Shown one piece after another: positions 2,059 through 16,863 of a DNA stretch of 27,748 nucleotides; position 1 is the first letter of the stretch, and each line of letters begins with the position of its first letter. Location of the stretch: IMG/VR virus record IMGVR_UViG_3300021961_000485, positions 1-27,748 of that record; one strand, given 5' to 3'. The notes beneath the pieces were generated by a model. That model was not told the DNA's origin and ran no database searches. It saw only the letters and a list, made by a program, of their open reading frames with translations. Source of the DNA: a virus. Made by a program: the position numbers and the translations under genes.

Positions 2059-2075
2059 TAGTACTAGGAGTACTA
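2059..2075 (+). promoter_or_regulatory. hairpin with Shine-Dalgarno in the loop
   Basis: Arms TAGTACT (2059-2065) and AGTACTA (2069-2075) are perfectly complementary around a 3-base loop AGG, which is part of the Shine-Dalgarno sequence. The last base of the 3' arm is the A of the start codon. The same layout occurs at 6585 and 14434. It could tune translation of the gene at 2075. Confidence 0.6.
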
Positions 2076-2794
2076 TGCTTGAAGAAACTATAAAAAAGAT
2101 AGGAAATAAATATATTGTGTATCCTAAGAAGGGTGGTAAAAGATTGGGAACACATGATACACTATCTGCTGCTAAAAAACAATTGAGGGCTATAGAAATG
2201 AGCAAACACATGGGAGAAGATAAGGTTCCAGGCGGACTAGCAGACAAAATGTCATTGAGTGATATTGCTAAAAAACATGGTGTATCTAATCAACAAATTA
2301 AAGACCAACTCAAAATGGGAATAAAGGTTGAATTGGAACACACTGATGATAAGTCTCTAGCAGCAGAGATTGCAATGGATCATTTGGTAGAAGATCCAGA
2401 ATATTATACAAAATTAAAAAAGATGGAAGAACATTCCTGTGTTTTCTGTGGAAATGTTGTAGAAACAGAAATAAATGAAGATTTAAGAAAATGGTTTGGT
2501 TCTGGATCTTGGGGTGGTAAAGGTGGTGGTGGATGGGATCGCTATAACTCAAAGGGTAAAAGAATAGGAAAATGTGGCGCCGGAAAAGAAGGTGAAGGAT
2601 ATGCTGCATGTCTTTCTAAAGCAGCTGCAAAAAAATTAGGTAAGAAAGGTATAGCATCTTTTGTTCGTAGAAAAAAGGATGCACAACAAAAAGCAGGTCG
2701 TGGAAAGAAAGGTTCTGGTGCAAAGGGTAAAGCACCAGTTAGAGTTTCTTGGGACAAAAAAGGTCAAGATAAAAAATATAACCCACCAAATTGA
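2075..2794 (+). CDS. modular Lys/Gly-rich phage protein with DUF5661-like segment
   Basis: This 239-aa protein of unknown function shows three blocks. Residues 1-40 form a basic GNKYIVYPKKGGKRLGTH-type segment. Residues 50-118 carry EHTDD and EIAMDHLVEDPEYY signatures that recall DUF5661-type segments of marine phage proteins (from memory). Residues 137-239 form a Gly/Lys-rich part with GGWDRYNSKGKR, KCG and KKGIASFVRRKKDAQ. CVFCG at 122-126 is an isolated CxxC. High charge suggests nucleic-acid contact or an internal virion protein, but nothing proves it. It follows the promoter at 2003, its start sits in a hairpin, and it is coupled to the next gene (TGA and ATG one base apart). Confidence 0.8.
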   Translation: MLEETIKKIGNKYIVYPKKGGKRLGTHDTLSAAKKQLRAIEMSKHMGEDKVPGGLADKMSLSDIAKKHGVSNQQIKDQLKMGIKVELEHTDDKSLAAEIAMDHLVEDPEYYTKLKKMEEHSCVFCGNVVETEINEDLRKWFGSGSWGGKGGGGWDRYNSKGKRIGKCGAGKEGEGYAACLSKAAAKKLGKKGIASFVRRKKDAQQKAGRGKKGSGAKGKAPVRVSWDKKGQDKKYNPPN

Positions 2795-2795
2795 T

Positions 2796-3704
2796 ATGTT
2801 AAACGAAAAGTGGTCAAAAAAATATAAAAAAAGTATTGATTGTAACAATCCAAAGGGTTTTTCTCAAAAAGCACATTGTGCAGGTAGAAAAGCTAGACAG
2901 AGTGGGAAATCTACTAAAAGTAAAAGTGTATCGGAGACAAAAATGGATAAAATGGAACATTTAAATGAAAAATTAAATCTTTTTATGGAAAAAAATGTTC
3001 CTACCCAACCATCAAAATGGGCTTATTGGAAAAGTAAAGCAAAAGAAAAATTTGATGTTTATCCAAGTGCATATGCAAATGGATGGGCAGCCAAAATGTA
3101 TAAAAAAGCTGGTGGTGGTTGGAGGTCAGTAAAAGAAATTATAGTTAGTGATACATCCATTCATGAAGGTATACGATACCACATGTCACAGGAAATACCA
3201 CTTTCGGAAAATGTATATCGTATGGGTTCAGATGAATATTTCAGATTGTTTAGAGAAGCAAGAGAAATATATAAAAATGGATTTAATCTTTGCTTATCGG
3301 AAAGTGACAAATGGTTCTTAGAAAGTGATTTGGGAGAGTTTGCTGAATTTGAAGGACAATTGGTCCCCCTTGATTGTCCAATGAGAGAACAGGAATCTGT
3401 TGATGAGGCAGAATATCGTGGAAAAAGCGTAAAACTCAATAGTCCAAAACGTGGAGGGTCTAAAAAATTTTATGTGTATGTTCGTGACCCAAAATCCAAA
3501 AATATAAGAAAAGTTGCTTTTGGAGCAAAAGCTGGTGGCGGTAATTTAGCCGTTAAATTGCGTGACCCTAAAGCTAGAAAAGCATTTTCCGATAGACACA
3601 ATTGTCCATCCAAAACAGATAAGACAACTGCTGGATATTGGTCATGTGCTCTACCCCGTTACGCAAAACAACTAGGACTTAGTGGTTCTGGGAGATATTG
3701 GTAA
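2796..3704 (+). CDS. modular basic phage protein with AYANGWA and DRHNC motifs
   Basis: This is a 302-aa protein of unknown function. I place the start at 2796, one base after the upstream TGA; a longer open frame reaches 2661 but would lie inside the previous gene. Blocks are IDCNNPKGFSQKAHCAGRKA (14-33), a KWAYWKSKAKEKFDVYPSAY segment followed by ANGWAAK (74-100), a more acidic middle, and a C-terminal block with PRYAKQLGLSGSGRYW. Similar blocks occur in many marine T4-like phage proteins, usually labelled structural or hypothetical (from memory). The Cys-His content of the C-terminal block hints at metal binding. It is probably co-translated with the preceding Lys/Gly-rich protein. Confidence 0.8.
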   Translation: MLNEKWSKKYKKSIDCNNPKGFSQKAHCAGRKARQSGKSTKSKSVSETKMDKMEHLNEKLNLFMEKNVPTQPSKWAYWKSKAKEKFDVYPSAYANGWAAKMYKKAGGGWRSVKEIIVSDTSIHEGIRYHMSQEIPLSENVYRMGSDEYFRLFREAREIYKNGFNLCLSESDKWFLESDLGEFAEFEGQLVPLDCPMREQESVDEAEYRGKSVKLNSPKRGGSKKFYVYVRDPKSKNIRKVAFGAKAGGGNLAVKLRDPKARKAFSDRHNCPSKTDKTTAGYWSCALPRYAKQLGLSGSGRYW

Positions 3705-4018
3705 TGTCAACCCCCTATAAAGAAAAAAAGAAAAATGATTATATAGTTAGAAAGTTTTTAAAAACCATAGATGAAATGGAATTAGAATGGCATGTTGATG
3801 AACATGATAGAGTAATTGTTCCATTAGAAAATAGTGGATGGAAGTTACAATTTGAAAATAAATTGCCAATTGACTTAGAGAAGGGAAAACAGTATATTAT
3901 TCCAAAAGAAAGTTGGCATAGGGTTATAAAAGGTAAAGATAATTTAACAATCATCATAAGAGAGAATGGGGGGAATGATGAAGAAACTATGGATAATAAC
4001 ATTATTGGGACTAGCTAG
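3704..4018 (+). CDS. small cupin-like protein
   Basis: A 104-aa protein; the ATG overlaps the upstream stop in a TAATG junction. The middle and C-terminus (SGWKLQFENKLPIDLEKGKQ, then YIIPKESWHRVIKGKDNLTI) read as alternating beta strands with the G-(X)n-P-(X)-W/H-R pattern of single-domain cupins. His residues are few, so metal binding is uncertain. Similar small proteins are common in T4-like marine phages as hypotheticals (from memory). Function is unknown; the cupin call is inference from the pattern. Confidence 0.6.
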   Translation: MSTPYKEKKKNDYIVRKFLKTIDEMELEWHVDEHDRVIVPLENSGWKLQFENKLPIDLEKGKQYIIPKESWHRVIKGKDNLTIIIRENGGNDEETMDNNIIGTS

Positions 4019-4112
4019 CATTGGGTCAACTTCTTTGATAAGAAAAATAAAACTTAACAAAAAGAATAATTTCTATGAAGAACTTAGAAAAGATAACATT
4101 TTCTTTACATGA
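3975..4112 (+). CDS. possible 45-aa membrane peptide overlapping both neighbours
   Basis: An open frame starting ATGATG behind GGGGGGAATG encodes MMKKLWIITLLGLASIGSTS and then a charged tail. The beginning looks like a signal anchor. It overlaps the cupin-like gene by 44 bases and the next gene by 38 bases in a third frame, which is unusual and lowers confidence. Its placement could instead reflect chance. Confidence 0.3.
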   Translation: MMKKLWIITLLGLASIGSTSLIRKIKLNKKNNFYEELRKDNIFFT

Positions 4113-4383
4113 TGATATGAACAATGATGAGGCACAAGCTTTTCTCATCTCCATAATGGATCATTATCATGGAACCATTCAATATAAAATTCATAGAACA
4201 AAAGAATTCTTGGATGATTTAATTTTTCATACAAAATATGATTTGGAAAACCCATTCTCAAACAATTCCAGAAAATATTATGACTTAGCAGTTTTTACTC
4301 GTTCAATATTAATTCCACAGTTATTAGACGCCCTAGAAAAACATGATAATTCAGAACCATTTGATGTTCATGGGTGGAATTGA
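4075..4383 (+). CDS. hypothetical protein (102 aa)
   Basis: A mostly helical, acidic protein (MKNLEKITFSLHDDMNNDEA at the start, FDVHGWN at the end). I do not recognise a family. The ribosome-binding site is weak (AAAGAA). It lies between the cupin-like gene and a box-led 57-aa gene on the same strand. Confidence 0.65.
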   Translation: MKNLEKITFSLHDDMNNDEAQAFLISIMDHYHGTIQYKIHRTKEFLDDLIFHTKYDLENPFSNNSRKYYDLAVFTRSILIPQLLDALEKHDNSEPFDVHGWN

Positions 4384-4386
4384 TAC

Positions 4387-4394
4387 TATTTATA
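4387..4394 (+). promoter_or_regulatory. candidate late promoter box TATTTATA
   Basis: An exact TATTTATA starts 34 bases upstream of the ATG at 4421, in a 37-base gap between genes. It is one of four exact copies at similar distance from gene starts in this window, so I read it as a -10-like late element. Confidence 0.5.
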
Positions 4395-4420
4395 TCTAAA
4401 TTTTATAGGAAAGGTATGAC

Positions 4421-4594
4421 ATGAAAACCGATTTAGAAAAATTTATAGTTCCAGTATTCGTCGTGGCTTATGGTGAAGATGAAAGCGACGCTGTTGCATA
4501 TGTTGAACAAGCCTTAGATTCAACCGAACTAGTATATGAAGATGGTATATTTAGTGTGGAGTTACTAGAAGACGAGGTTGAACCATACGTATAA
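4421..4594 (+). CDS. small acidic protein (57 aa)
   Basis: An ATG frame preceded by AGGAAAGGT encodes MKTDLEKFIVPVFVVAYGED and ends EDEVEPYV. It is strongly acidic, with no Cys and no membrane segment. No family is recognised. It has a TATTTATA box upstream and its last codons overlap the usable ribosome-binding site of the next gene (TGGAG). Confidence 0.65.
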   Translation: MKTDLEKFIVPVFVVAYGEDESDAVAYVEQALDSTELVYEDGIFSVELLEDEVEPYV

Positions 4595-4607
4595 TGGAGT
4601 TTCGAAA

Positions 4608-4778
4608 GTGGTAGCTATTAAAAAATTATTATTTAAACCAACAAATACAATACCATTCATGTTTGGTTTATTTATTGGTATGACAGTTTTAAATCATGAT
4701 ATCATTTACAATGGGATGGTAACAGCATTATCTGGATCAGCCTTCCATATTATAAAGGCGTCTCTATTCCGACTCTAA
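4608..4778 (+). CDS. small membrane protein (56 aa)
   Basis: I choose the GTG at 4608 because TGGAG lies 8 bases upstream; an in-frame TTG at 4578 would overlap the preceding gene. The product has a basic start (AIKKLLFKP) and a hydrophobic stretch, roughly PFMFGLFIGMTVL, then a second weakly hydrophobic part. It is likely a one- or two-pass inner-membrane protein of unknown role. Confidence 0.5.
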   Translation: MVAIKKLLFKPTNTIPFMFGLFIGMTVLNHDIIYNGMVTALSGSAFHIIKASLFRL

Positions 4779-4817
4779 TTTGGTTACAGATAACAAATCT
4801 TAGCCAGTGAAAGTATA

Positions 4818-5150
4818 ATGGAATTTTTACCAGAATTTTTCCTTGACGAAAGAGGAATCATAGCTCTTGTTTTTACGGTAGTTGCTGCTATAGTTTCAGC
4901 CAAACTAGAAACTAAAAAAGAAACAAAGGAAGATTCAGAACTCATTCTCAAAGCATTTGACGAGATCAAAAAAACAGTAGATGTTCTCAGATGTCAAAAC
5001 GAAGAACTTAAAAAAGACTACAAACTATTGCGTGATGAACTAGAAGATTATCGTCACAAATACTATAAGCAAATAGAAATCAATAATTCTCAGAGTGCAC
5101 AACTTACAAAGCTAAATTTAGAAATGATTTATTTGGTTGATAAAAAATGA
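4818..5150 (+). CDS. N-anchored coiled-coil protein (110 aa)
   Basis: Residues about 13-30 (GIIALVFTVVAAIVSAKL) form one membrane segment. The rest is charged heptad-like sequence (LETKKETKEDSELILKAFDE and onward), so it is probably an inner-membrane anchored coiled coil. The topology resembles inner-membrane spanins, but no outer-membrane spanin partner or lysis gene is adjacent, so that role is only a possibility. The ribosome-binding site is weak. The next gene has the same topology. Confidence 0.65.
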   Translation: MEFLPEFFLDERGIIALVFTVVAAIVSAKLETKKETKEDSELILKAFDEIKKTVDVLRCQNEELKKDYKLLRDELEDYRHKYYKQIEINNSQSAQLTKLNLEMIYLVDKK

Positions 5151-5151
5151 C

Positions 5152-5179
5152 TTGACAAATAAATTATATCTATTAAATT
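5152..5179 (+). promoter_or_regulatory. candidate sigma70-type promoter
   Basis: A perfect TTGACA (5152-5157) lies in the 56-base gap before the gene at 5207. The best -10 is TAAATT (5174-5179) at 16 bases spacing, a moderate match. A late-type box with one mismatch (AATTTATA) overlaps it at 5176-5183, so the gap may carry both promoter types. Confidence 0.4.
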
Positions 5180-5183
5180 TATA
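5176..5183 (+). promoter_or_regulatory. possible late-type box AATTTATA
   Basis: One mismatch from TATTTATA, starting 31 bases upstream of the ATG at 5207, the same distance as the exact boxes. The surrounding sequence is very AT-rich, so chance is a concern. Confidence 0.3.
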
Positions 5184-5206
5184 TATTACTTCAACCAAAA
5201 GGATAT

Positions 5207-5644
5207 ATGATCATTGCGCTCACGGTAGTATCAACCATCTTGTGTTTGGTGACCTTATTCACATTAATTGCTGTTGCAGCTGCCCTCGGTCAATTAAATA
5301 ACATTAATACTGCAATTAGAGAAATTTATACTTTAAACAAAGAGCAAATGAACCACTATACCACTTTGTCCAAGTATGTTTTGGATTTATCTGTGGTAGC
5401 AGAAAATCTTAGTGAAACAGTTCAAGAACTTACACAAGCTCTTTATGAAAATTCATTCAAGATGGTACGAGATGGTAACAAAATATTTGGAGGATTTTCA
5501 GCCGAAGATATAGCTGAAAAAATGAATAAAAATGATTATAATTTAACTGATGGTGATATTAATCAATTAAGAGATCTTTTTCTTGGAATGGACGAAGAAG
5601 AAGATGATGATGACGATATGGAAGATGGCAAAGAAACATTATAA
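5207..5644 (+). CDS. N-anchored membrane protein with acidic C-terminus (145 aa)
   Basis: Residues 1-27 are a hydrophobic anchor (IIALTVVSTILCLVTLFTLI then AVAAAL). A helical, heptad-like region follows (about 28-90), then a highly acidic tail (DEEEDDDDDMEDGKE). AAAGGA precedes the ATG. No family is recognised; the topology suggests a membrane-tethered cytoplasmic or periplasmic protein. It overlaps the following gene by about 20 bases. Confidence 0.7.
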   Translation: MIIALTVVSTILCLVTLFTLIAVAAALGQLNNINTAIREIYTLNKEQMNHYTTLSKYVLDLSVVAENLSETVQELTQALYENSFKMVRDGNKIFGGFSAEDIAEKMNKNDYNLTDGDINQLRDLFLGMDEEEDDDDDMEDGKETL

Positions 5645-6041
5645 CAGATACAAATATTGGTATGATGCTCCATATGAAGAGGATAGTATAAAAAAACGAT
5701 TTGGAGCTGGCTGGCAAAATTTATTAGATGAAGCGTTTAGAGTTGTTTCTTATTTTCCTAATGCACGAATATGTAACGCAAAACGGTGTTATGGCATGTT
5801 GCACATGTATGCTACTGCTGAAGATAAATTTGACCTTCACGCTATAGAAGGAATATTGTGGAAGGTTGAAAGATTATCTTCAAGCATATGTGAAGAATGT
5901 GGTAAAATGGGAAAACGCAGAACTGAATTAAAAGAAACAAGATGTATGTGTAATAATTGTTATTTAATTTTTTTAAACAAAGCAGACGACCCCAAAACAT
6001 TATTTATGGAAGGTCGTGAAGGAAGATTCAAGGAGAATTAG
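5625..6041 (+). CDS. four-cysteine putative zinc-binding protein (138 aa)
   Basis: I prefer the ATG at 5625 (MAKKHYNRYKYWYDAP); the frame is open back to 5583, which would lie entirely inside the previous gene. The C-terminal part has CEECGK and, about 17 residues on, CMCNNC, a typical four-Cys zinc-ribbon layout. An earlier Cys pair (CNAKRC) is also present. The fold suggests a nucleic-acid or protein-binding zinc knuckle; function is unknown. Its stop lies 2 bases before the next start. Confidence 0.7.
   Translation: MAKKHYNRYKYWYDAPYEEDSIKKRFGAGWQNLLDEAFRVVSYFPNARICNAKRCYGMLHMYATAEDKFDLHAIEGILWKVERLSSSICEECGKMGKRRTELKETRCMCNNCYLIFLNKADDPKTLFMEGREGRFKEN
6025..6039 (+). promoter_or_regulatory. 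weak hairpin exposing Shine-Dalgarno
   Basis: Arms GATTC (6025-6029) and GAATT (6035-6039, one G:U pair) flank the loop AAGGA. The loop holds the core of the ribosome-binding site for the ATG at 6044. It is a short stem in AT-rich sequence and only meaningful as part of the recurrent pattern. Confidence 0.3.
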
Positions 6042-6043
6042 TT

Positions 6044-6349
6044 ATGTTTTTTAGAGAAGAGGATGTAGAACCAGCTGTTAATTTAGCAGTAAAATTGTTG
6101 GGTCCATATAATTACATGGAGCATCATAACAGAAATGCATATAGAAATGTTTCTATTATGACACGAGAATTTGGTAAAATTTGGTTTGGTGATTTAGAAT
6201 TAAATGAACAGACTAAAGAAAATTTAGAAAAGCTATCTGTTACAATTAATCAACGAGTTTATTTTACTAGAGATTACGATACCAATAATGCAATTTATGT
6301 AACAACTAGTAAATTGCGTGAAGTTGTACCAGAAGAATTAAATGGGTAA
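6044..6349 (+). CDS. hypothetical protein (101 aa)
   Basis: A good AAGGAG site precedes the ATG. The protein (MFFREEDVEPAVNLAVKLLG at its start) is soluble with mixed helix and strand, and contains GKIWFGDLEL and a C-terminal VYFTRDYDTNNAIYVTTSKL. I recognise no family or catalytic motif. It ends where a TATTTATA box begins. Confidence 0.7.
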   Translation: MFFREEDVEPAVNLAVKLLGPYNYMEHHNRNAYRNVSIMTREFGKIWFGDLELNEQTKENLEKLSVTINQRVYFTRDYDTNNAIYVTTSKLREVVPEELNG

Positions 6350-6357
6350 TATTTATA
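6350..6357 (+). promoter_or_regulatory. candidate late promoter box TATTTATA
   Basis: An exact copy begins at the end of the upstream gene, 39 bases before the ATG at 6389. A good AGGAG ribosome-binding site lies between box and start. Confidence 0.5.
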
Positions 6358-6388
6358 TATAACATTAAGTTTTAATAGGAGAACTCTT

Positions 6389-6568
6389 ATGAGTATTTTG
6401 TTGTTGTTAATTGTTGTTGGTGGATTACTTTTTTGGAGTAAGTCTAGAACAAAAACATGTGGTTGTGGAAAGAAGTTTTGTACTTGTTTAAAACAGGTTC
6501 CTGTGGTTATTGAAACACCAAAGCCAAAGAAGGCTTCTACACGCGGCCGCAAGCCAAAGACAAATTAA
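6389..6568 (+). CDS. small membrane-anchored Cys-motif protein (59 aa)
   Basis: An ATG with AGGAG upstream encodes MSILLLLIVVGGLLFW as a single membrane segment. It is followed by the cysteine cluster CGCGKKFCTC and a Lys/Pro/Arg-rich tail. The tight four-Cys cluster next to the membrane could bind a metal such as Zn or Fe-S, but this is inference. The coding sequence holds GCGGCCGC, notable in such AT-rich DNA. It is preceded by a TATTTATA box, which supports it being a real gene. Confidence 0.65.
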   Translation: MSILLLLIVVGGLLFWSKSRTKTCGCGKKFCTCLKQVPVVIETPKPKKASTRGRKPKTN

Positions 6569-6576
6569 TTTTTTTT

Positions 6577-6594
6577 GATACTAGTTTTAGTATC
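6577..6594 (+). promoter_or_regulatory. alternative hairpin upstream of gene at 6612
   Basis: GATACTA (6577-6583) pairs perfectly with TAGTATC (6588-6594) around loop GTTT. The 3' arm is also the core of the 5' arm of the next hairpin (6585-6612), so the two structures cannot form together. Confidence 0.5.
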
Positions 6595-6612
6595 AATTGG
6601 AGGATACTAAAA
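6585..6612 (+). promoter_or_regulatory. 10-bp hairpin with Shine-Dalgarno in the loop
   Basis: TTTTAGTATC (6585-6594) and GATACTAAAA (6603-6612) are perfectly complementary around loop AATTGGAG. The loop carries the ribosome-binding GGAG and the 3' arm ends on the A of the ATG. It is the longest of the three perfect examples. Confidence 0.65.
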
Positions 6613-6902
6613 TGTTAAGTATTATTAAAAAATTTTTAACTGGCTTTTCAAAAAATACTGATGTAGATGAAATTATTCGTGAATATGACATTATATCATA
6701 TATCATTAATGATTGTCATTCTATGGAAGATTTTATCTATTGTAAAAAAAAGATTAGACAGTTCCAAAATCGTTGGGACAAAGAAGAAGGCTCTTTCGGG
6801 TCTAATATGTCTAACAAATTAAACAAACAGTATAGTACTCGTCTTGTACGACAAAAATATCAGATTGGGTTATATGCGCAGAAAAAGAGGAAGAAAACAT
6901 AG
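6612..6902 (+). CDS. hypothetical basic protein (96 aa)
   Basis: The ATG at 6612 follows GGAGG. The protein (MLSIIKKFLTGFSKNTDVDE at the start) is helical, with an acidic middle and a strongly basic C-terminus ending KKRKKT. No family is recognised. It overlaps the next gene by 29 bases. Translation is probably controlled by the competing hairpins just upstream. Confidence 0.65.
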   Translation: MLSIIKKFLTGFSKNTDVDEIIREYDIISYIINDCHSMEDFIYCKKKIRQFQNRWDKEEGSFGSNMSNKLNKQYSTRLVRQKYQIGLYAQKKRKKT

Positions 6903-7266
6903 AATTCACACCAAGGAAGAAATTTGGTGTTGTATATGTAAAACTGCAAGTGTCATGAGCAACTCTGATGTAGAAGAGTTAATTTGTGGTGATTGTTATG
7001 GTAGAATGATTTATTGGGAGGAACTTGAGTTAGAAAAAGAAAGAGTAAATTATGTACAAGGTTGGAATCTAAAAAAGAAATATAAAGCACCAGATGGAAA
7101 AATCTACAGTTTCGGACAAGAAATAGTCGGAGAAGAAGATGTTAGAAATACCAAACAACCTAGTAAGAAAACTAAACCTGTTTCAAAACGAGGAACCAAG
7201 ACTAGTAAATTACTACTATCTAAAAAAGATAAGACAAGCAGTAAGAAAAAAAGAAAACAGAGCTAG
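6874..7266 (+). CDS. CxxC...CxxC putative zinc-binding protein (130 aa)
   Basis: I choose the ATG at 6874 (MRRKRGRKHRIHTKEE); a TTG at 6844 is an in-frame alternative. CCIC and, about 20 residues later, CGDC form a four-Cys zinc site like that of the gene at 5625. The C-terminal 60 residues are Lys/Ser-rich low complexity. The next gene overlaps this tail by 128 bases in the +1 frame, so the true end of this protein may be earlier, or the overlap is real. Confidence 0.55.
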   Translation: MRRKRGRKHRIHTKEEIWCCICKTASVMSNSDVEELICGDCYGRMIYWEELELEKERVNYVQGWNLKKKYKAPDGKIYSFGQEIVGEEDVRNTKQPSKKTKPVSKRGTKTSKLLLSKKDKTSSKKKRKQS

Positions 7267-7447
7267 ATTTTATCGTATCAAAGGAACTCCAATTGTTGGT
7301 GGGATAGAATCAAAAGAGTTTATAGAAACTCTGGAAGAATTGCAGGAAAGATTTATAGAAGCAGAACTATATGAATTAGCAAAAGAATGTAGTGATTTAA
7401 TAAAAGAAATTCATATTGATAAATTAATAACAGAAACTCAAAAATAG
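7139..7447 (+). CDS. small helical protein with UVR-like motif (102 aa)
   Basis: GGAGAAGAAG directly precedes the ATG at 7139, a good ribosome-binding site, even though the gene overlaps its neighbour by 128 bases. Residues about 60-95 (LEELQERFIEAELYELAKEC then SDLIKEI) resemble the helical-hairpin UVR motif of UvrB, UvrC and McsA, though with fewer residues between helices. The N-terminal half is basic. Function is unknown; the UVR likeness is weak. Confidence 0.6.
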   Translation: MLEIPNNLVRKLNLFQNEEPRLVNYYYLKKIRQAVRKKENRARFYRIKGTPIVGGIESKEFIETLEELQERFIEAELYELAKECSDLIKEIHIDKLITETQK

Positions 7448-7450
7448 GTT

Positions 7451-7990
7451 ATGTACAATTCAAACTGTATTGTTTTAAATTCAACATTTGAACCACTGGC
7501 TATAGTTCCTTCTCGCCGCGCACTAATTTTGTGTTTACAGGACAAAGCTACGGTTCTACAAAGTTATGATTATAAGGTCAGGTCACCATCGGTTGAGTTT
7601 AAACTCCCATCTACTATTGCTCTTAAAGAGTATATCAAGACTAGAAAACTTTATTCAAGAAGAGCAATCCTAAACAAAAGAAATTTATTTATTAGAGATG
7701 ACCACCAATGTCAATATTGTGGTCGTGGTCCAAGTGATTTCTCTTCCAGAGAAGAATTAACTCGTGACCATGTGATACCAAGAAAACGAGGTGGATTAAA
7801 TACTTGGGAAAATATGGTGACAAGTTGTTCTAGTTGTAATCATAAAAAAGCGGACTTGACATTAGAACAAATAGGTTTTATTTTAAATAAACAACCATAC
7901 GCACCAAGCATGTTTGAAATCTTTGCTAAGTCAAGGATGAAGCATTTTAATTTAGATAAATTATACGATGAGGTTTCATGTTCACTTTAG
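7451..7990 (+). CDS. HNH endonuclease
   Basis: A 179-aa protein with the complete HNH layout. Zinc cysteines are CQYC (87, 90) and CSSC (126, 129), the catalytic pair is DH (106-107), followed by PRKRGG, Asn121 and NHKKAD (130-135). The N-terminal 80 residues match the domain seen in free-standing bacterial HNH proteins. It would cut DNA as a possible free-standing homing or phage-competition nuclease. It is not inside an intron or intein here. It overlaps the following HD gene by 13 bases. Confidence 0.88.
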   Translation: MYNSNCIVLNSTFEPLAIVPSRRALILCLQDKATVLQSYDYKVRSPSVEFKLPSTIALKEYIKTRKLYSRRAILNKRNLFIRDDHQCQYCGRGPSDFSSREELTRDHVIPRKRGGLNTWENMVTSCSSCNHKKADLTLEQIGFILNKQPYAPSMFEIFAKSRMKHFNLDKLYDEVSCSL

Positions 7991-8610
7991 ACATTGAAGA
8001 AAAGGTTACAAAAAATTACGAACGACTCATGGAGTTTGTAGAACAAGACAGTCGCTGTGAAGAAATTAAGAAGTTATTTGAAGTTTTACACAGTGAACTA
8101 ATTTCAGCACCAGCTAGTGGTAAGACATATTTTCACAATTGTTTTCCCGGCGGTTATCTTGACCACGTTCTTAGGGTCATTGATAACGCAATCAAGCTAG
8201 CTCCGTTGTATAAGGAAGCTGGTGGAACAATTGATTTTACCAAACAAGAACTTATTTTTTCTGCTATGATGCACGACCTTGGTAAGTTGGGTACCGAAGA
8301 TGGCCCATATTATGTTGATAGTGATGATTGGCAAAAGAAGCGTAATGAATATTATGTTCAGAACAAGAACATTCAATATTTCAAGCCACCAGAACGGGGT
8401 CTTATGATGCTACAAAAGTATGGCATAACAATTACTGAAAAGGAATGGCTTGCGATTAAATTGTCCGATGGTATGTATGATGAGGGAACTCATAGTTATT
8501 TGAGAAATTATTCTCCATATGCTATGAAGACCAGCCTTCCATACATTGTACATTGGGCAGACCACATGGCAAGTCAAGCCGAAGGAGACATGGGTAGAAT
8601 TTCATTCTAA
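7978..8610 (+). CDS. HD-domain phosphohydrolase
   Basis: A 210-aa protein whose FHNCFPGGYLDHVLRVIDNA (52-71) and MMHDLGK (97-103) give the H...HD metal ligands of the HD superfamily. The GGYLDH context is closest to YhaM-type HD proteins, which act on nucleic acid 3' ends or nucleotides; the substrate here is unknown. HD proteins are frequent in marine T4-like phages. GATGAGG precedes the ATG within the end of the HNH gene, so the two are translationally coupled. Confidence 0.85.
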   Translation: MFTLDIEEKVTKNYERLMEFVEQDSRCEEIKKLFEVLHSELISAPASGKTYFHNCFPGGYLDHVLRVIDNAIKLAPLYKEAGGTIDFTKQELIFSAMMHDLGKLGTEDGPYYVDSDDWQKKRNEYYVQNKNIQYFKPPERGLMMLQKYGITITEKEWLAIKLSDGMYDEGTHSYLRNYSPYAMKTSLPYIVHWADHMASQAEGDMGRISF

Positions 8611-8626
8611 CATGATATGTATATAT

Positions 8627-8647
8627 GTGTCGCCTAAAAAGGGACAC
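8627..8647 (+). promoter_or_regulatory. hairpin in the hsp20 leader
   Basis: GTGTC (8627-8631) pairs with GACAC (8643-8647), and CC with GG inside (one bulged G), around an A-rich loop, in the 80-base gap before the Hsp20 gene. No U-run follows, so it is not a terminator. A 5'-leader structure is possible, but it does not cover the ribosome-binding site. Confidence 0.25.
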
Positions 8648-8690
8648 GAGATGCGTAGATACGGTCTAACAATTTAACAAGGAGAAAACT

Positions 8691-9167
8691 ATGACTATGC
8701 TATCTGTATTCCATCCTCGCAATAATCGTGAGTTGAATTCACTCTTAAAAGAGCGTGACCACTTTATCCGCTCATTTGACACCATTTTTGACGATATGTT
8801 CAAGAATCATTTTGGTGAACTAGGTGTCTCTGCTGGTAAGGGTGCTTATCCAAAGGTCAATGTTATTTCACACGACGACTGTGTTGAAATTGTTGCTGAG
8901 CTAGCAGGATTCACCAAAGACGACATTGAATTGGAGATTGATGAAAACCTCCTCACAATCTCAGGCAGGTCGCCACATAAGGAAGACAAGGAGGTTACTT
9001 ACTATTTACGGGAACTCAAACGAAGTTCCTTTAGGCGTTCATTTCAGGTTAATGAAAATGTTCAAATGGACAAGGTGAGCGCTAAATTTGACAATGGCCT
9101 TTTAACAATCTTAATTCCCAGAATTAAGGAAGAGGTCAAAGTCGCAACAAAGGTTACGATAAAATAA
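8691..9167 (+). CDS. small heat shock protein Hsp20
   Basis: A 158-aa ATP-independent holdase. The alpha-crystallin domain spans about residues 52-147, from PKVNVISHDDCVEIVAELAG to the C-terminal strand with GLLTILIPR, and the I-x-I-type ILI anchor is present. AAGGAG precedes the ATG. Hsp20 genes are a recurrent cargo of T4-like marine phages and may help folding or assembly of virion proteins. A strong terminator follows, so it probably ends a transcript. Confidence 0.95.
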   Translation: MTMLSVFHPRNNRELNSLLKERDHFIRSFDTIFDDMFKNHFGELGVSAGKGAYPKVNVISHDDCVEIVAELAGFTKDDIELEIDENLLTISGRSPHKEDKEVTYYLRELKRSSFRRSFQVNENVQMDKVSAKFDNGLLTILIPRIKEEVKVATKVTIK

Positions 9168-9186
9168 CTTAAAAAAACGAAAGCCG

Positions 9187-9199
9187 AAAGGAGGTGATC
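9187..9199 (+). other. 13-base perfect anti-16S-tail (Shine-Dalgarno) sequence without a start codon
   Basis: AAAGGAGGTGATC is complementary over 12-13 bases to the conserved 3' end of bacterial 16S rRNA. No ATG or GTG lies at a usable distance downstream; the first ATG (9216) is inside the terminator hairpin and about 20 bases away. It sits in the 3' untranslated part of the hsp20 transcript. Confidence 0.5.
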
Positions 9200-9214
9200 T
9201 TAACGGTTTTGTTT

Positions 9215-9246
9215 AATGGGGGGAGAAGTTTTCCCCCCATTTTTTT
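9215..9246 (+). terminator. rho-independent terminator
   Basis: AATGGGGGG (9215-9223) pairs with CCCCCCATT (9233-9241) in a GC-strong stem, directly followed by a run of T (9240-9246). It ends the transcript carrying the HNH, HD and hsp20 genes. It is the only strong intrinsic terminator I see in the window. Confidence 0.93.
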
Positions 9247-9247
9247 A

Positions 9248-9255
9248 TATTTATA
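9248..9255 (+). promoter_or_regulatory. candidate late promoter box TATTTATA
   Basis: An exact copy lies immediately after the terminator and 30 bases before the ATG at 9278. The terminator-then-box order is what one expects at a transcript boundary and supports the promoter reading. Confidence 0.6.
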
Positions 9256-9277
9256 TAGTACACTTTTGAGGTAAATT

Positions 9278-10249
9278 ATGTTTAAATATTTAGTATTACT
9301 TTCGTCAATGGTAATTGCAACAGTTGCAGCTTTCTTTTCCATTTCTGGATTGGGAAGTTTGTTTGCTGGTGCATTTATACCAGTAGTCATTATGGCTTCT
9401 AGTTTAGAAGCAGGTAAATTGGTTACCGCTTCATTCCTGACCAGACATTGGAAAGACTTAACGGTCATGTTAAGGTTTTATTATATGTTAGCTACCTGTG
9501 TGTTAATTTTAATCACATCAGCGGGTATTTACGGGTTTCTTACTGCAGCGTATCAAACGACCGCAGACCAACTCAGTATTGTTACCCAACAAGCGAGTGT
9601 ATTGGAGTTAAGAAAGGAACGATACCAAGAACAATTGGATTTGTATATAGCAGAAAGACAACGAGTCAGTGAAACTATTGTTCAATTAACTCAAGGTTTG
9701 TCTAATAATGTTATTCAGTATGTTGACGAAGCAACAGGACAATTGGTCACCAGTACATCAAGTGCAACCAGAAATGTTATCCAACAACAACTTAATACCG
9801 CTACTCAAGAAAGAGAACAAGTATCTTTAAAAATTGAGGAAGCAACAGATAGTATTACATCGTTAGATATTCAAAAAATTGAGTTAGAAGCAAACAACGA
9901 AGTGGCTGCCGAAATTGGTCCACTCCGTTATATGTCCAATCTTACAGGCTGGTCAATGGACAAGGTGGTCAACATATTTGCACTATTAATTGTCTTTGTT
10001 TTTGACCCATTAGCGGTATCATTGGTAGTTGGATACAACCGACTTGCTATGTTACCAAAGATGGTCAAGGATGAAAAAAAGTACGAAATCTACAAAGAGG
10101 TAGAAGAAAACAAACCTGTTCGTGAAGAATTATCAACTGAAATTGTAACAAAAGAAGAAGAGCCTCTTGACAATATAGTAGAAGAGGTGTTAGATTTAGA
10201 TGTTACAAAAACAAAAAAGCGTAATTGGGGACTAGGAAGACAACCATAA
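9278..10249 (+). CDS. multi-pass membrane protein with long coiled coil
   Basis: This 323-aa protein has hydrophobic segments near residues 5-23, 28-42, 67-91 and 232-252. About 140 residues of heptad-like sequence (roughly 95-225) lie between the third and fourth. The C-terminal 70 residues are charged. The coiled coil probably lies on one side of the inner membrane. GAGG precedes the ATG. I recognise no named family; similar coil-containing membrane proteins occur in marine phages (from memory). It begins a new transcript behind the terminator and TATTTATA box. Confidence 0.8.
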   Translation: MFKYLVLLSSMVIATVAAFFSISGLGSLFAGAFIPVVIMASSLEAGKLVTASFLTRHWKDLTVMLRFYYMLATCVLILITSAGIYGFLTAAYQTTADQLSIVTQQASVLELRKERYQEQLDLYIAERQRVSETIVQLTQGLSNNVIQYVDEATGQLVTSTSSATRNVIQQQLNTATQEREQVSLKIEEATDSITSLDIQKIELEANNEVAAEIGPLRYMSNLTGWSMDKVVNIFALLIVFVFDPLAVSLVVGYNRLAMLPKMVKDEKKYEIYKEVEENKPVREELSTEIVTKEEEPLDNIVEEVLDLDVTKTKKRNWGLGRQP

Positions 10250-10253
10250 AATT

Positions 10254-11150
10254 ATGACTAATCTAGGTTATTGTTGTATAAATCTTACTCTTGCTGACGA
10301 AGGTGTCAAAACCTCTCGTAGTATGATTCAACGCACTTTCAAAGCCAAAGGCATCAAATATGCCTCTGAATTGGCTCTTGAAAATGTGAAAGATTTACAT
10401 AAAATTATTACATGGAATATTCATAACGGTGTAAAACTTTATCGTATTACATCAGATTTGTTTCCGTGGGAAAGCGAATACCAGATAGAAGACCTGCCAG
10501 ACCAACATAAGATAATTAATAAATTACAAGAAATTGGGCAGTTGATTAAACTATCTGGTATTCGTGTATCCTTCCACCCTAGTCATTTTGTCAAATTGGG
10601 TTCTGAGCGTGAATCTGTAATTCAAAATTCTATTGAAAATGTAAATCACCACGCTAAGATTTTTGACCTTATGGAACTACCCAAAACACATGAGTATCCT
10701 ATCAATATTCATATTGGTTCTAAGGGTTCCAGTAAAGAACAAACTACCAAGCGTTTCCTCAACAGTATTGACCGACTAACCGATTCTGCTCGGTCACGCC
10801 TCGTAGTTGAGAACGACGACAAAGCCTCTCTATATTCGGTCAAACAATTGTGTGATGTTCTAAATGACACACCAGTTACATTTGACTATTTCCATCACAA
10901 GTTTCATACTGATGATGTATCCGAAGAAGAAGCATTTTTCATGGCGTATGAAACATGGGGTAATGTCACACCCCTATTCCATTATTCAGATAGCAAACGA
11001 GAATACGAAGATAATACATCTAAAAACACAGCACATGCTGATTATCTTTACAATCCAATCAACACATATGGAGTACCCATTGATATTGATTTGGAAGCTA
11101 AGTCCAAAGAACTTGCATTGTTCAAATATTGGAGTGATTACGGAACTTGA
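10254..11150 (+). CDS. uvsE: UV-damage endonuclease (UvsE/UVDE family)
   Basis: A 298-aa TIM-barrel nuclease that nicks DNA 5' to UV photoproducts. Family hallmarks are LGYCCINLTL near the N-terminus, the metal-binding RVSFHPSHF, NIHIGSKG, VENDD and TFDYFHHKF segments, and the C-terminal HADY. All expected His/Asp/Glu ligands appear present. Only 4 bases separate it from the preceding membrane-protein gene, and no clear Shine-Dalgarno is seen. Carriage fits a phage of sunlit water, as an alternative to T4 DenV. Confidence 0.92.
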   Translation: MTNLGYCCINLTLADEGVKTSRSMIQRTFKAKGIKYASELALENVKDLHKIITWNIHNGVKLYRITSDLFPWESEYQIEDLPDQHKIINKLQEIGQLIKLSGIRVSFHPSHFVKLGSERESVIQNSIENVNHHAKIFDLMELPKTHEYPINIHIGSKGSSKEQTTKRFLNSIDRLTDSARSRLVVENDDKASLYSVKQLCDVLNDTPVTFDYFHHKFHTDDVSEEEAFFMAYETWGNVTPLFHYSDSKREYEDNTSKNTAHADYLYNPINTYGVPIDIDLEAKSKELALFKYWSDYGT

Positions 11151-11165
11151 CAACTAGAGGCAATT

Positions 11166-11780
11166 ATGATAAGTTATTTAGTGACAACACACAATGAAGG
11201 TAAGTGTATAGAAACATTGCTATTCCAAATATTGGAATATATGTCAGATGATGATGAAATTGTTATTGTTGATGACAATTCTACAGATAAACTAACTCTA
11301 AATATTTTAGAGTCGGTTAAATCTGATAAGGTTCGTATTTTTAAACATGACCTAAATAAAGATTTTGCAAGTCACAAAAATTTTGGTAAAGAACAGTGTC
11401 ATAATAAATGGATTTTTCAATTAGATGCTGATGAAACTGTTTCTGAATATTTGTTAAAAAATATTCATACATTACTAGAATATAATAATGAGATAGAACT
11501 ATTAGCAGTACCACGGGTCAATATCGTAAATGGATTGACTCAGGAAGATGTACAAAAATGGCGTTGGAGAGTCAACGAAATGGGTTGGGTAATGTGGCCC
11601 GACTTCCAAACCAGAATCTTCCAAAACAAGCCAGAAATCAAGTGGAAAAATAAAGTGCATGAGGTCATCACTGGTCACAAAACATTCACCACATTACCAG
11701 AAGAAAAAGAGTGGGCACTTTACCACATCAAAGACATAGACAGACAGAGAAAACAAAATGCCTTATACGAAACTATCTAA
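11166..11780 (+). CDS. family 2 glycosyltransferase
   Basis: A 204-aa GT-A fold enzyme: YLVTTHNEG at the N-terminus, VDDNSTD (35-41) for the nucleotide sugar, and LDADE (86-90) as the metal-binding DxD. The C-terminal WRWRVNEMGWVMWPDFQTRI and WKNKVHE segments match small GT2 enzymes of the lipopolysaccharide/SunS-like type. The acceptor is unknown: phage DNA, virion protein or host glycan. GAGG lies before the ATG. The next gene overlaps its end. Confidence 0.9.
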   Translation: MISYLVTTHNEGKCIETLLFQILEYMSDDDEIVIVDDNSTDKLTLNILESVKSDKVRIFKHDLNKDFASHKNFGKEQCHNKWIFQLDADETVSEYLLKNIHTLLEYNNEIELLAVPRVNIVNGLTQEDVQKWRWRVNEMGWVMWPDFQTRIFQNKPEIKWKNKVHEVITGHKTFTTLPEEKEWALYHIKDIDRQRKQNALYETI

Positions 11781-12852
11781 AATGGTACCAACATATACAT
11801 TTGATGATGTTCAGATTATTCCACAATATAGCGAAATTCAATCTCGTTCAAATTGTGATACATCTACATTGTTGACCGAAAATTATCATATTGACATTCC
11901 ATTAATCGCTTCACCAATGGCTTCTATTTGTGAATACGACATGGCGTTCAAGATGTGGTCATTGGGTGGAGTTGGGGTCATTCATAGATTTAATACAATT
12001 GATGAACAAGTGGATATAGTCAGTAAATTAAAATCTAATATAGATTCTATTTGTTCCAAAACAAAAGAAACTACTTATAGATATACAAATCCTGTTATTG
12101 CAGCTGCAATTGGAGCTAAAGAACAGGATATATATAGAGCAAGAGCGTTGGTTGAGGCTGGAGCCAATGTTCTGGTTATAGATATTGCACACGGTCACCA
12201 TTCGTCAACGCAACACACCCTTGAAGAACTTAAGATGTTACGGGAGTTGCCAAACATGGAGTTTGATGTAATCGCGGGAAATATAGCAACCGCCAGAGCA
12301 GTTGAAGATTTAGAATACTGGGGAGCTAATGGACTACGAGTTGGAATAGGTGGTGGCTCAGTGTGTGAGACTCGTATTAGAACGGGAGTGGGTATCCCAC
12401 AAGTTTCGTGTCTATACGAAACCTCAGCTGTCGCAAACACACCCATAATCTCATGTGGTGGAACTCGTTACCCAGGCGATGTGGCTAAAGCATTAGTCGC
12501 AGGAGCCTCTTCGGTAATTCTTGGTTCAATGATTTCTGGAACGGATGAAACCCCAGGCGATGTTATGCATTTTGGGTCATACGGAAAGAGACAACGAATG
12601 AAGATTTACCACGGTTCCGCAAGTGATGTTCAGAAAACTCTTTCTTCAACACAACTTAATAACATTGAAGGAACTGCTGCTATGGTTCCAATGAAAGGTT
12701 CTGTTGAAAAAATAGTAAATGAAATTATGGATGGTGTACGTTCAGCTATGAGTTATATAGGAGCCCAGACAATTGATGAGTTGTATATTAATGGAAATTT
12801 TGTTTCAGTAACTACCAATGGTCTTAGGGAGGCAATGCCACACCTGTTATAA
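11758..12852 (+). CDS. IMP dehydrogenase/GMP reductase family enzyme
   Basis: A 364-aa barrel with TFDDV near the start, IDIAHGHH (141-148), and the loop GIGGGSVCETR (196-206) with catalytic Cys203. SCGGTRYPGDVAKA (phosphate site) and EGTAAMVPMKGS follow. The CBS pair of standard IMP dehydrogenase is absent. IDIAHGH and the C-terminal SAMSYIGAQTIDEL favour IMP dehydrogenase (IMP to XMP), but the short flap lacks a clear Arg-Tyr pair, so GMP reductase (GMP to IMP) is not excluded. The ATG at 11782 (MVPTYTFDDV) fits family length better than 11758, which overlaps the glycosyltransferase by 23 bases. Confidence 0.88.
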   Translation: MPYTKLSKMVPTYTFDDVQIIPQYSEIQSRSNCDTSTLLTENYHIDIPLIASPMASICEYDMAFKMWSLGGVGVIHRFNTIDEQVDIVSKLKSNIDSICSKTKETTYRYTNPVIAAAIGAKEQDIYRARALVEAGANVLVIDIAHGHHSSTQHTLEELKMLRELPNMEFDVIAGNIATARAVEDLEYWGANGLRVGIGGGSVCETRIRTGVGIPQVSCLYETSAVANTPIISCGGTRYPGDVAKALVAGASSVILGSMISGTDETPGDVMHFGSYGKRQRMKIYHGSASDVQKTLSSTQLNNIEGTAAMVPMKGSVEKIVNEIMDGVRSAMSYIGAQTIDELYINGNFVSVTTNGLREAMPHLL

Positions 12853-12878
12853 TTCGTTAATCTTAACAAGGAGTCAAA

Positions 12879-13454
12879 ATGAAAATTAGACTTATGTTAA
12901 GCCTTTTGGCAATACTAGTTTTATTACAAGTAAAAAATTTTAATAAAGAAATATCTATTGTAGAAGAAATAGTTCTTGAAGATATTCAAGACGAACCAGA
13001 AATAGTACATGAGATAGAAGAATTCTTAAATGCTATTGGTCGCTTAGAAAGTAATAATCGTTATGATGTAGTAAATCCATATGGATTCATGGGCAAATAT
13101 CAATTTAGTCCAAGAACAGTAAAATATTTAGGATTTACTGTAAGTAGAGAAGAGTTTTTGTCAAACCCCTCTTTACAAGACGAAGTTATGATGACATATT
13201 TATACTACAATTACAATGCTTTAAAACGTTATATTACCAGATATAATGATACCTATCACAAGGGAATATACATAACAACATCGTCCATTTTAGCAGGTGC
13301 ACATTTTGCTGGAGCACAAGGTGTAAAATCTTTTTTCATCAGTACGGATTCTACGGGTACCACAGATTCTAACGGAATGACTCTCAGAAAATATATGAGA
13401 CAATTTTCTGGATATCATTTAGATAGAGATGTTATTGAACAGGGAGTTATTTAA
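12879..13454 (+). CDS. membrane-anchored lysozyme-like (transglycosylase) protein
   Basis: A 191-aa protein with an N-terminal signal anchor (RLMLSLLAILVLLQV), an acidic linker, then a lysozyme-like domain from about residue 48. Key segments are IGRLESNN (53-60) with the likely catalytic Glu57, NPYGFMGKYQFSPRTVKYLG (66-85), the SILAGAHFAGAQG helix and a C-terminal GMTLRKYM. It would cleave peptidoglycan, either as endolysin (the anchor could act as a SAR-type export signal) or as a virion-associated enzyme. AAGGAG precedes the ATG. It is the only muralytic gene in the window. Confidence 0.8.
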   Translation: MKIRLMLSLLAILVLLQVKNFNKEISIVEEIVLEDIQDEPEIVHEIEEFLNAIGRLESNNRYDVVNPYGFMGKYQFSPRTVKYLGFTVSREEFLSNPSLQDEVMMTYLYYNYNALKRYITRYNDTYHKGIYITTSSILAGAHFAGAQGVKSFFISTDSTGTTDSNGMTLRKYMRQFSGYHLDRDVIEQGVI

Positions 13455-13729
13455 TGTTGGTTTTTTTAATATTATCATTGTTACTAAACATAGCACTAAT
13501 TTATAGTTCTATTGTTTCTTTGCGTAAAATTGAATATTATGAAGATAGAATTATGTGGTTTTACACACAATCCAACAAAATATTAACTACCATGAGAATA
13601 CTAGATAGCCGTGAAATGTTTGAAAAGGACGACGAAGTTGGGCAAGTTTTTCAACAACTCACTACTACTATCGGAAATCTAAGGACGTTAATATATGACA
13701 CCCAAGAAAATGAAGAGGAAATCTTCTAA
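13454..13729 (+). CDS. small single-pass membrane protein (91 aa)
   Basis: Residues 1-22 (LVFLILSLLLNIALIYSSIV) are one membrane segment, and the rest is a soluble helical tail with FEKDDEVGQVFQQL. The ATG overlaps the lysozyme-like gene's stop (TAATG), so they are co-translated. Adjacency suggests a lysis role, for example holin-like, but one segment and a long tail also fit other functions. I recall similar FEKDDEVG proteins in marine T4-like phages as hypotheticals. Confidence 0.7.
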   Translation: MLVFLILSLLLNIALIYSSIVSLRKIEYYEDRIMWFYTQSNKILTTMRILDSREMFEKDDEVGQVFQQLTTTIGNLRTLIYDTQENEEEIF

Positions 13730-14426
13730 TAAAATTTATTGGACATTAGAAACAGAACAATCAATTATTAAGTACAATAAAGAAGAAGATGACCTTTTAA
13801 AAGAAAAAATATTTAAAGACCATATATACGGTCCATTGGACAAGATGGCAGAAAATATTATAAATCGCTTTAAGTTTCCTTATATGGAAGGGTCTTTTGA
13901 AGACATTAAAAGTGAAGTTATTTCTTATTTAATTTTAAAGCTCCCAAATTTTACCGAAGACAAGGGAAAGTCTTTTAGTTATTTTTCGGTAGTAGCTAAA
14001 AATTATCTTATTCTACAGAATAACAAAAGATATAAAGAAGAAAAACGAACCATTTATTTGGCCGATAAGACAGAAGAAAGTTATTCTCTACAAGATACAT
14101 TAATCATAGACCCAGACGAGACATATCACGAACCCGAGCGCGTTGAATTTATAAAATTATTTATAAAGTATTGGGACGGAAATCTACACCAAATTTTTCC
14201 AAAAGATAAGGATTTGGAAATTGGGTACGCTATATTGCTATTGTTAACTCGGTCACACCAGATTGAAAATTTTAATAAAAAAGCAATCTATCTAATGATA
14301 CGAGATATCACAGATTGCAAGACCAGTGACATTACAAAGATTGTCAAAGAATTTAAAGTTATACTAGACAGACAGTATAGATATTTCCAAAGAACGGGAA
14401 AAATATCAGAATACTTCGACAACTAA
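13695..14426 (+). CDS. gp55-like late transcription sigma factor
   Basis: This 243-aa protein resembles T4 gp55-type sigma factors of marine T4-like phages. Residues about 45-118 hold a sigma region 2-like helical core: FKFPYMEGSFEDIKSEVISY, then a FSYFSVVAKNYLILQNNKRY motif for core binding and -10 recognition. No clear sigma region 4 is seen, as in gp55. It would direct host RNA polymerase to late promoters, for which TATTTATA is my candidate. It overlaps the preceding gene by 35 bases; AGGA lies before the ATG. It sits just before the structural genes it should activate. Confidence 0.8.
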   Translation: MTPKKMKRKSSNKIYWTLETEQSIIKYNKEEDDLLKEKIFKDHIYGPLDKMAENIINRFKFPYMEGSFEDIKSEVISYLILKLPNFTEDKGKSFSYFSVVAKNYLILQNNKRYKEEKRTIYLADKTEESYSLQDTLIIDPDETYHEPERVEFIKLFIKYWDGNLHQIFPKDKDLEIGYAILLLLTRSHQIENFNKKAIYLMIRDITDCKTSDITKIVKEFKVILDRQYRYFQRTGKISEYFDN

Positions 14427-14427
14427 A

Positions 14428-14435
14428 TAATTATA
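14428..14435 (+). promoter_or_regulatory. possible late-type box TAATTATA
   Basis: One mismatch from TATTTATA, beginning 25 bases before the ATG at 14453 in the gap between the sigma gene and the baseplate cluster. It overlaps the start of the hairpin at 14434. Confidence 0.3.
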
Positions 14436-14453
14436 GTAAATGGAGATTTACTA
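14434..14453 (+). promoter_or_regulatory. 8-bp hairpin with Shine-Dalgarno in the loop
   Basis: TAGTAAAT (14434-14441) and ATTTACTA (14446-14453) are perfectly complementary around the loop GGAG, the ribosome-binding sequence itself. The 3' arm ends on the A of the ATG. This is the cleanest example of the recurrent start-site hairpin. Confidence 0.65.
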
Positions 14454-14833
14454 TGGAACAACCAGTATTTGACAACAAAACATTAGCAGATGTTTTTAAA
14501 GACATATATAAAAATACAGAAAGTAAGAGAGAACAAATCAATACATTTATTCTTAAACTTACACAACTTATAAAAACTCCTGAAGATGCATCGGTGATAG
14601 CTCCCGTCATCAAAGATTTTATGGAGGTCAATGTTAAAAACGACGAACACATCGTTCGTGTCGCTCAAATTGCACAAAGAGCTATGTCTATTGGTGCAAA
14701 GGCTGCTTCCTCTACTGATTTACTAACAGAAGAAGAAAAACAACAATTGTTGAATAATATTTCTTTTGAGATAGATGAATTACAAGAAGAGGCCAAACAA
14801 GTTGAAGAGGAACTTGTGAGATTGAGAGCTTAA
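14453..14833 (+). CDS. helical protein upstream of the baseplate genes (126 aa)
   Basis: Almost entirely helical, with a C-terminal coiled-coil stretch (EIDELQEEAKQVEEELVRLR). No family is recognised and no enzymatic motif is seen. It is the first gene after the sigma factor and lies one base before the gp5-like hub gene, so a structural or assembly role is plausible. Its start is embedded in a perfect hairpin. Confidence 0.75.
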   Translation: MEQPVFDNKTLADVFKDIYKNTESKREQINTFILKLTQLIKTPEDASVIAPVIKDFMEVNVKNDEHIVRVAQIAQRAMSIGAKAASSTDLLTEEEKQQLLNNISFEIDELQEEAKQVEEELVRLRA

Positions 14834-16485: not shown

Positions 16486-16863
16486 ATGGCAACGATTGGA
16501 TTTACTTTACCATTGCGTAGAGCAAATGGTGGATATTTTGAACAATCCAATACTTTGCTTGAACAAGTTAAAAGTAATTTTATCAATTTAGTATTGACCG
16601 TTAAAGGTGAAAGATTCAATAATCCAACCTTTGGGTGTGATATTCATCAATTAATTTTTGATTTTAATAATGACGATATTGGTGAACGGGCTAAAGAAGC
16701 TGTTGAAAATGCTGTCCAAGAATGGATGCCTTATATAACAATTGAAGATTTTGCTATAGAAACAACAGATAATGATAGAGATAGACATACATCAAAAATG
16801 TATATTAGATATAGGTTAACAGATAATCCAAATTTACTAGATGAAGTAGTACTTTTTGTCTGA
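16486..16863 (+). CDS. baseplate wedge protein gp25
   Basis: A 125-aa member of the GPW/gp25 family, a sheath-initiator-type wedge protein conserved in contractile tails. The core TVKGERFNNPTFGCDIHQLI then FDFN (38-61) carries the conserved Gly-Glu-Arg and FG, and the helix after it (DIGERAKEAVENAVQEWMPY) is typical. Length is near T4 gp25 (132 aa). No strong ribosome-binding site precedes the ATG, so coupling to the upstream gene is likely. It is followed by gp6 as in other T4-like phages. Confidence 0.93.
   Translation: MATIGFTLPLRRANGGYFEQSNTLLEQVKSNFINLVLTVKGERFNNPTFGCDIHQLIFDFNNDDIGERAKEAVENAVQEWMPYITIEDFAIETTDNDRDRHTSKMYIRYRLTDNPNLLDEVVLFV

Follow-up and report, generated by a model that had tools for sequence, protein, structure and literature searches.

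Start-site hairpins in a T4-like viral contig: three unrelated structures, one of them a candidate timing switch of the T4 soc/e class

Introduction

The viral contig IMGVR_UViG_3300021961_000485 of IMG/VR (27,748 bases, GC 34%), which we analysed over its full length and refer to as the window (G000), has three genes, starting at 2075, 6612 and 14453, in which a perfect inverted repeat runs up to the start codon and carries Shine-Dalgarno (SD) bases in its loop. The question raised is whether these hairpins are copies of one translational control element, as a sequence-only reading of the window had suggested, or structures that arose separately. Our answer is that they are unrelated start-site structures, real as sequence, and not one shared control element. 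We further think it rather probable that the hairpin at 14453 is a timing switch of the kind found at the T4 soc and e genes, with that at 6612 a probable attenuator and that at 2075 weak and possibly due to chance.

The repeats are as follows.

2059-2075, + strand: 7-base-pair (bp) hairpin TAGTACT-AGG-AGTACTA, ending on the A of the ATG of gene 2075-2794 (DUF5661 domain)
6585-6612, + strand: 10-bp hairpin TTTTAGTATC-AATTGGAG-GATACTAAAA, its 3' arm ending on the A of the ATG of gene 6612-6902
14433-14441, + strand: 5' arm ATAGTAAAT of the inverted repeat at 14453
14442-14445, + strand: loop GGAG (SD) of the same repeat
14446-14454, + strand: its 3' arm ATTTACTAT, which takes in the A and T of the start codon

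All three were described in the sequence-only reading and are present, that at 14453 being 9 bp long (14433-14454), one more than had been reported, and the placing of SD bases (AGG or GGAG) inside each loop was correct. Relatives of the window were gathered by protein search and have the same gene order.

Start-site hairpins that inhibit translation are known for the T4 mRNAs of e, soc, 49 and I-TevI, and in the case of e the longer early transcripts are repressed while transcripts from the late promoters, which do not have the 5' part, are well translated (PMC3014915).

The leader of gene 14453

The features that surround this hairpin are

14428-14435, + strand: putative late promoter TAATTATA (clade consensus TATTTATA), 17 nucleotides (nt) from the ATG
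14453-14833, + strand: the gene under the hairpin, for a conserved 126-amino-acid protein in the tail/baseplate gene block
13695-14426, + strand: putative gp55-like late sigma factor gene, directly upstream, by structural match to T4 gp55

The 5' arm opens with the last three bases of the putative promoter. One of the boxes TATTTATA, TAGTTATA or TAATTATA lies 16-17 nt 5' of the ATG in 13 of the 14 ortholog leaders that were aligned, and it is this 8-base box, not the hairpin, that is the most widely conserved feature of the alignment. Of 167 starts, 18 have the consensus TATTTATA 17-32 nt upstream, which is about ten times background. The late box of T4 sits roughly at -13 to -6, and transcription starts about six bases downstream of it. 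By analogy, late transcription would be expected to start where the 5' arm ends, at about 14440-14441, and a late mRNA should then carry the SD and the 3' arm but no pairing partner for the latter. The predicted folds are in keeping with this: the long leader folds at -8.3 kcal/mol (z -2.5) with the AUG partly in the stem and the SD in the loop, and the leader cut at the expected start at -1.3 or -1.1 kcal/mol.

The closest parallel was found with a blind measure, also used at 25-32 starts of the window, which counts a start if the arm is perfect and no shorter than 7 bp, SD bases are in the loop and the 3' arm ends no more than 2 bases from the A of the ATG. There was one match among 162 starts of T4 (0.87 expected), and this top match, at position 15573 (CATGTAATT-TAAATAAAGGAG-AATTACATG, with TATAAATA just upstream), is soc by the name given in the record. 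The soc leader resembles that of 14453 in having the SD (AAAGGAG) in the loop, a perfect AU-rich 9-bp stem with its 3' arm ending on the ATG, and a late promoter at the 5' arm, TATAAATA standing immediately before it. The predicted energies are also alike, -8.6 and -8.3 kcal/mol, and in both the fold is lost on cutting near the late start (0 kcal/mol for soc if the RNA begins inside the 5' arm). They differ in loop size (12 nt in soc, 4 nt in 14453) and in the box, which is TATAAATA in soc and TA[A/G/T]TTATA in the clade of the window. The genes also differ, as soc is a capsid gene beside a homing endonuclease gene whereas 14453 encodes a conserved small protein and lies beside the putative late sigma gene, and shared ancestry of the two leaders is not implied.

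In the case of T4 e a hairpin masks the start, its 5' strand is overlapped by the late promoters, and early read-through transcripts are repressed but late ones are not (PMC3014915). T4 e also has a small AATAC-TTAGGAG-GTATT-ATG hairpin with the SD in its loop. However its longer AATACCTTCT/AGGAGGTATT pairing holds the SD in the stem, whereas the 14453 stem takes in the AUG and leaves the SD to the loop. The leaders of T4 49 and I-TevI are similar in being listed in the review as start-site hairpins that inhibit translation, a likeness at the level of that listing and not base by base. The split ribosome binding sites of T4 25 and 38 are a further case of a lineage-restricted hairpin at a start site, but their hairpin separates SD from AUG and promotes initiation, whereas that of 14453 contains the SD. 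With regard to the view that no named element has this form, T4 soc has the exact geometry and T4 e nearly so. The 14453 hairpin is a good candidate for a further member of the soc/e class.

The upstream gene

The stop codon of gene 13695-14426 ends two bases before the late box, and this gene and 14453 adjoin in the same order in T4-like relatives, Immutovirus and Microcystis phage Mel-JY01 among them. These two phages are the nearest named relatives of both genes, at about 36-41% identity, the query for 13695 being a distant ortholog.

A 14-member alignment of the 13695 protein gave a usable AlphaFold model with a mean predicted local distance difference test (pLDDT) score of 77. Chain F of the T4 gp55-dependent RNA polymerase open complex (7d7c) is its best structural match (Z 9.9 over 116 residues, 19% identity), and nearly all remaining matches are sigma factors. 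With Foldseek alone no match had E below 0.001, though sigma factors fill most of the top places. By sequence, matches in Pfam and PHROGs were weak and scattered, the best being PHROG 1740 (RNA polymerase sigma factor) at E 0.0036 for one of the 14 members, and a search of PDB sequences with the protein gave no match. Since there is no significant sequence match, the product is identified by its fold, its position and the late boxes, and as a Z of about 10 does not by itself decide the matter for a helical protein, we treat it as a putative gp55-like late sigma factor.

The protein is 243 amino acids long and in addition to a sigma2-like N-terminal part like T4 gp55 has a further helical part, at about 146-234, that looks like a helix-turn-helix; full-length bacterial sigma factors align over both parts. 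It may be a late sigma factor with its own region-4-like domain. A gp55-gp33 fusion has not been found in nature according to a review of T4 (PMC2988020).

No terminator-like site was found between the 13695 gene and 14453, and transcripts of the sigma gene should therefore run into 14453 and include the hairpin. We propose that such read-through RNA would carry both arms, and that initiation on it would be lowered because a tight loop holds the SD and the stem takes up the AUG. When the late sigma factor has become active, RNA synthesis would begin from the late promoter within the 5' arm, and the resulting mRNAs, without that arm, would be expected to be freely translated. If this is true the switch would hold down expression of 14453 for as long as the sigma message is made. 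A device known from T4 soc and e, the hiding of a start codon on read-through RNA and its release by late transcription that begins inside the hairpin, would then be at work in a very divergent T4-like clade too, right behind a late sigma gene. A blind scan for an SD in the loop, a stem that reaches the ATG and a late box at the 5' arm could cover all T4-like phages, soc having been recovered as the top match in T4.

Constraint on the 14453 leader

The main alternative is that the complementarity at 14453 is incidental, a chance match between a conserved late promoter and a conserved ribosome binding site with no regulatory hairpin involved. The comparison of leaders bears on both readings.

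The close clade for this leader comprises seven phages (the window, L006, L090, L091, L092, L096 and L100). The four-fold degenerate sites of gene 14453 differ pairwise by 19-69% among them, and yet the 20 nt before the ATG are identical in all seven bar one C-to-T change in L091, which keeps the pair as G-U. The invariant part includes the usually variable spacer between SD and ATG, which at gene 16111 does vary across the same seven phages. A frozen leader whose sole substitution preserves pairing argues against incidental complementarity, and we take the comparison as strong support for constraint on both arms within the close clade.

Several observations weigh the other way. Relatives further out (L008, L103, L104, L105 and L107), and L098 as well, keep the promoter without the stem, and in L003 an insertion of about 21 nt parts the promoter from the SD, leaving the box at 38 nt. 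Counting of pairs on 13 leaders gave no covariation above shuffles, with one apparent double change. The needs of the promoter and the ribosome binding site alone could explain the invariant leader, and with the SD in the loop any repression may be modest. Arm drift without compensatory change, which the sequence-only reading had named among the results that would refute its proposal, is indeed what is seen outside the close clade, while inside it the leader is invariant despite the large synonymous divergence. On balance we regard incidental pairing as unlikely, although it is the alternative to be taken most seriously.

Because the stem is lost beyond the close clade while the box persists, the proposed switch at 14453 is lineage-restricted. 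The structures of T4 gene e and gene 25 are likewise lineage-restricted (PMC3014915).

In L098 (1972-2005) and L003 (9570-9619), where the canonical stem is lost, there are perfect stems of 6 bp, with loops of 17 nt, that likewise run up to the ATG. We give these no weight, as they are too weak and the predicted folds do not use them.

The hairpin at 6612

This hairpin folds at -10.4 kcal/mol, or -17.3 with flanks (z -4.7), and is the strongest of the three. In the L003 ortholog (45% protein identity; L166 and L213 are the same contig as L003) both arms are kept, with one G-U change and a 15-nt loop, and the leader folds at -18.5 kcal/mol (z -3.8). L164, which has a closer ortholog of 6612 and is without gene 6389, has no such hairpin. 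No late box adjoins the hairpin, the nearest being at 6350, before gene 6389, and a late mRNA from there would therefore carry the whole hairpin. It is probably a plain start-masking attenuator within a late polycistronic mRNA, and would probably lower translation of 6612 relative to 6389.

There is a second pairing in this leader that is exclusive with the start hairpin:

6575-6596, + strand: alternative hairpin TTGATAC-8nt-GTATCAA, exclusive with the 6612 start hairpin; 8 bp in L003

One could envisage a two-state leader, in which 6590-6596 pairs upstream, leaving the start open, or downstream, masking it, with ribosomes finishing the preceding gene deciding between the two. Both pairings occur in both phages with comparable energies (alternative -5.8 in the window and -6.8 in L003, the start hairpin having -9.1 and -7.7), L003 largely keeps the pairing segments while the linker grows, and the first segment starts within about 10 nt of the upstream stop codon in both. 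However these are just two sequences, and exclusive pairings of this kind arise in about 1% of shuffles (1.4% for the window and 0.4% for L003), so are only mildly unusual. They are also absent from L164, which is without the upstream gene. We consider two-state control improbable, more so than incidental pairing at 14453, and prefer the plain attenuator.

A pattern scan of viral contigs for the 6612 form gave 47 stretches. Apart from L163, a near-identical copy, and L166/L213, these are unrelated, mostly away from gene starts and consistent with chance, and a wider spread of the form was rejected.

The hairpin at 2075

Upstream of this hairpin is a host-type promoter:

2003-2031, + strand: sigma70-type promoter TTGACA-17-TATATT, conserved in L166

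The hairpin lies 28 bases downstream of the promoter. It is weak, at about -5.8 kcal/mol, and the minimum-energy fold of the full leader is a different one. In the L166 ortholog (72% protein identity) the hairpin and SD are gone and an AT-only inverted repeat remains. A scan of viral contigs for the 2075 form found it in one contig only, that of a near-identical phage. We see it as a weak lineage-specific structure, possibly there by chance, and claim no mechanism for it.

At L166:4486-4538 the sigma70 promoter is kept before the 2075 ortholog, and there is no recognisable SD before the ATG.

Is there a common element?

The case for one element rested on the joint occurrence of the three hairpins and on their shared arms. 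Arms of 7 bp or more stand at three of the 25-32 starts of the window, whereas dinucleotide shuffles give 0.04 (whole leader shuffled) or 0.14-0.2 (SD fixed), with P about 0.002. The enrichment over shuffled start regions is thus real within the window, though post hoc, because the form was picked after being seen. The weaker versions proposed at 6025, 16097, 26818 and 27510 have stems of merely 4-5 bp and are at chance level, stems of at least 5 bp in the window numbering 3 against 2.6 expected.

The recurrence in relatives, which the sequence-only reading had proposed as a check, did not appear. Among 151 distinct starts of close relatives there was no match of at least 7 bp beyond copies of the same three leaders, and there were none at 260 starts of distant T4-like contigs (1.8 expected) or at 50 starts of an Immutovirus. 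A mixed set of contigs fetched with another protein gave 4 matches at 145 starts against 0.65 expected; two of these are poly-T/poly-A runs, and TAGTA/TACTA arms are in none of the four. With T4 giving soc alone, there is no excess at other starts in the clade, and the form is therefore not a recurrent device of it. In Rfam only the transfer-messenger RNA (tmRNA) and transfer RNA (tRNA) were above the gathering score, with no match at the hairpins even at E 1.

The three leaders have also evolved differently, with 2075 lost in L166, 6612 kept in L003 and lost in L164, and 14453 kept in the seven close phages and changed in L003. We reject a unified element on this ground and on the results of scanning relatives near and far, T4 and the Immutovirus. 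Of the common translational control that had been suggested, the part acting at the start site has good support at 14453 and moderate support at 6612, and what falls away is the common element or factor. Nothing among the results speaks for the temperature response that had also been suggested.

The most specific form of a common factor would be a phage RNA-binding protein (RegA, gp43-type or other) for which one stem-loop serves as operator on all three genes. There are three hairpins within one window, and TAGTA is indeed in all the 5' arms and TACTA in all the 3' arms, where a 5-mer common to three random arms from these leaders turns up in just 0.13% of draws. However the register is not the same, as TACTA ends on the A of the ATG at 2075 and 14453 but three bases earlier at 6612. 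The loops are of 3 nt (2075), 8 nt (6612) and 4 nt (14453), and the promoter contexts are host-type sigma70, intercistronic and a late promoter overlapping the arm respectively. The scans and the losses in L166 and L164 also tell against an operator, and the sites of T4 RegA are without clear structure (PMC3014915). We think such an operator very improbable, and are equally doubtful of a narrower version in which the TAGTA/TACTA stem-loops are a small recent regulon of one phage RNA-binding factor, confined to the phage of the window and its nearest kin and acting on top of the 14453 switch.

A reading in which the GGAG of the loop is cut by a RegB-like endoribonuclease, to inactivate early mRNAs, is hardly credible, as although the loops of 14453 and 6612 fit roughly, structure generally protects from RegB, the loop of 2075 does not present GGA, and there was no REGB_T4 match in 13 related contigs, all of them fragments.

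Other features of the window

The window has a gp25-like baseplate gene at 16486 (Pfam GPW_gp25). The phage has its own tmRNA (231-559, minus strand) with the tag DEPYLMAA, beside tRNA-Glu and tRNA-Lys, the two tRNAs of the window. A PurA-like adenylosuccinate synthase gene at 637-1746 (minus strand) is on the same contig as an IMP dehydrogenase/GMP reductase-like gene at 11758-12852. There is a strong terminator-like hairpin at 9215-9241, between genes 8691 and 9278, with a late box directly after it at 9248, and at this site the relatives have a similar G/C-rich hairpin of different sequence.

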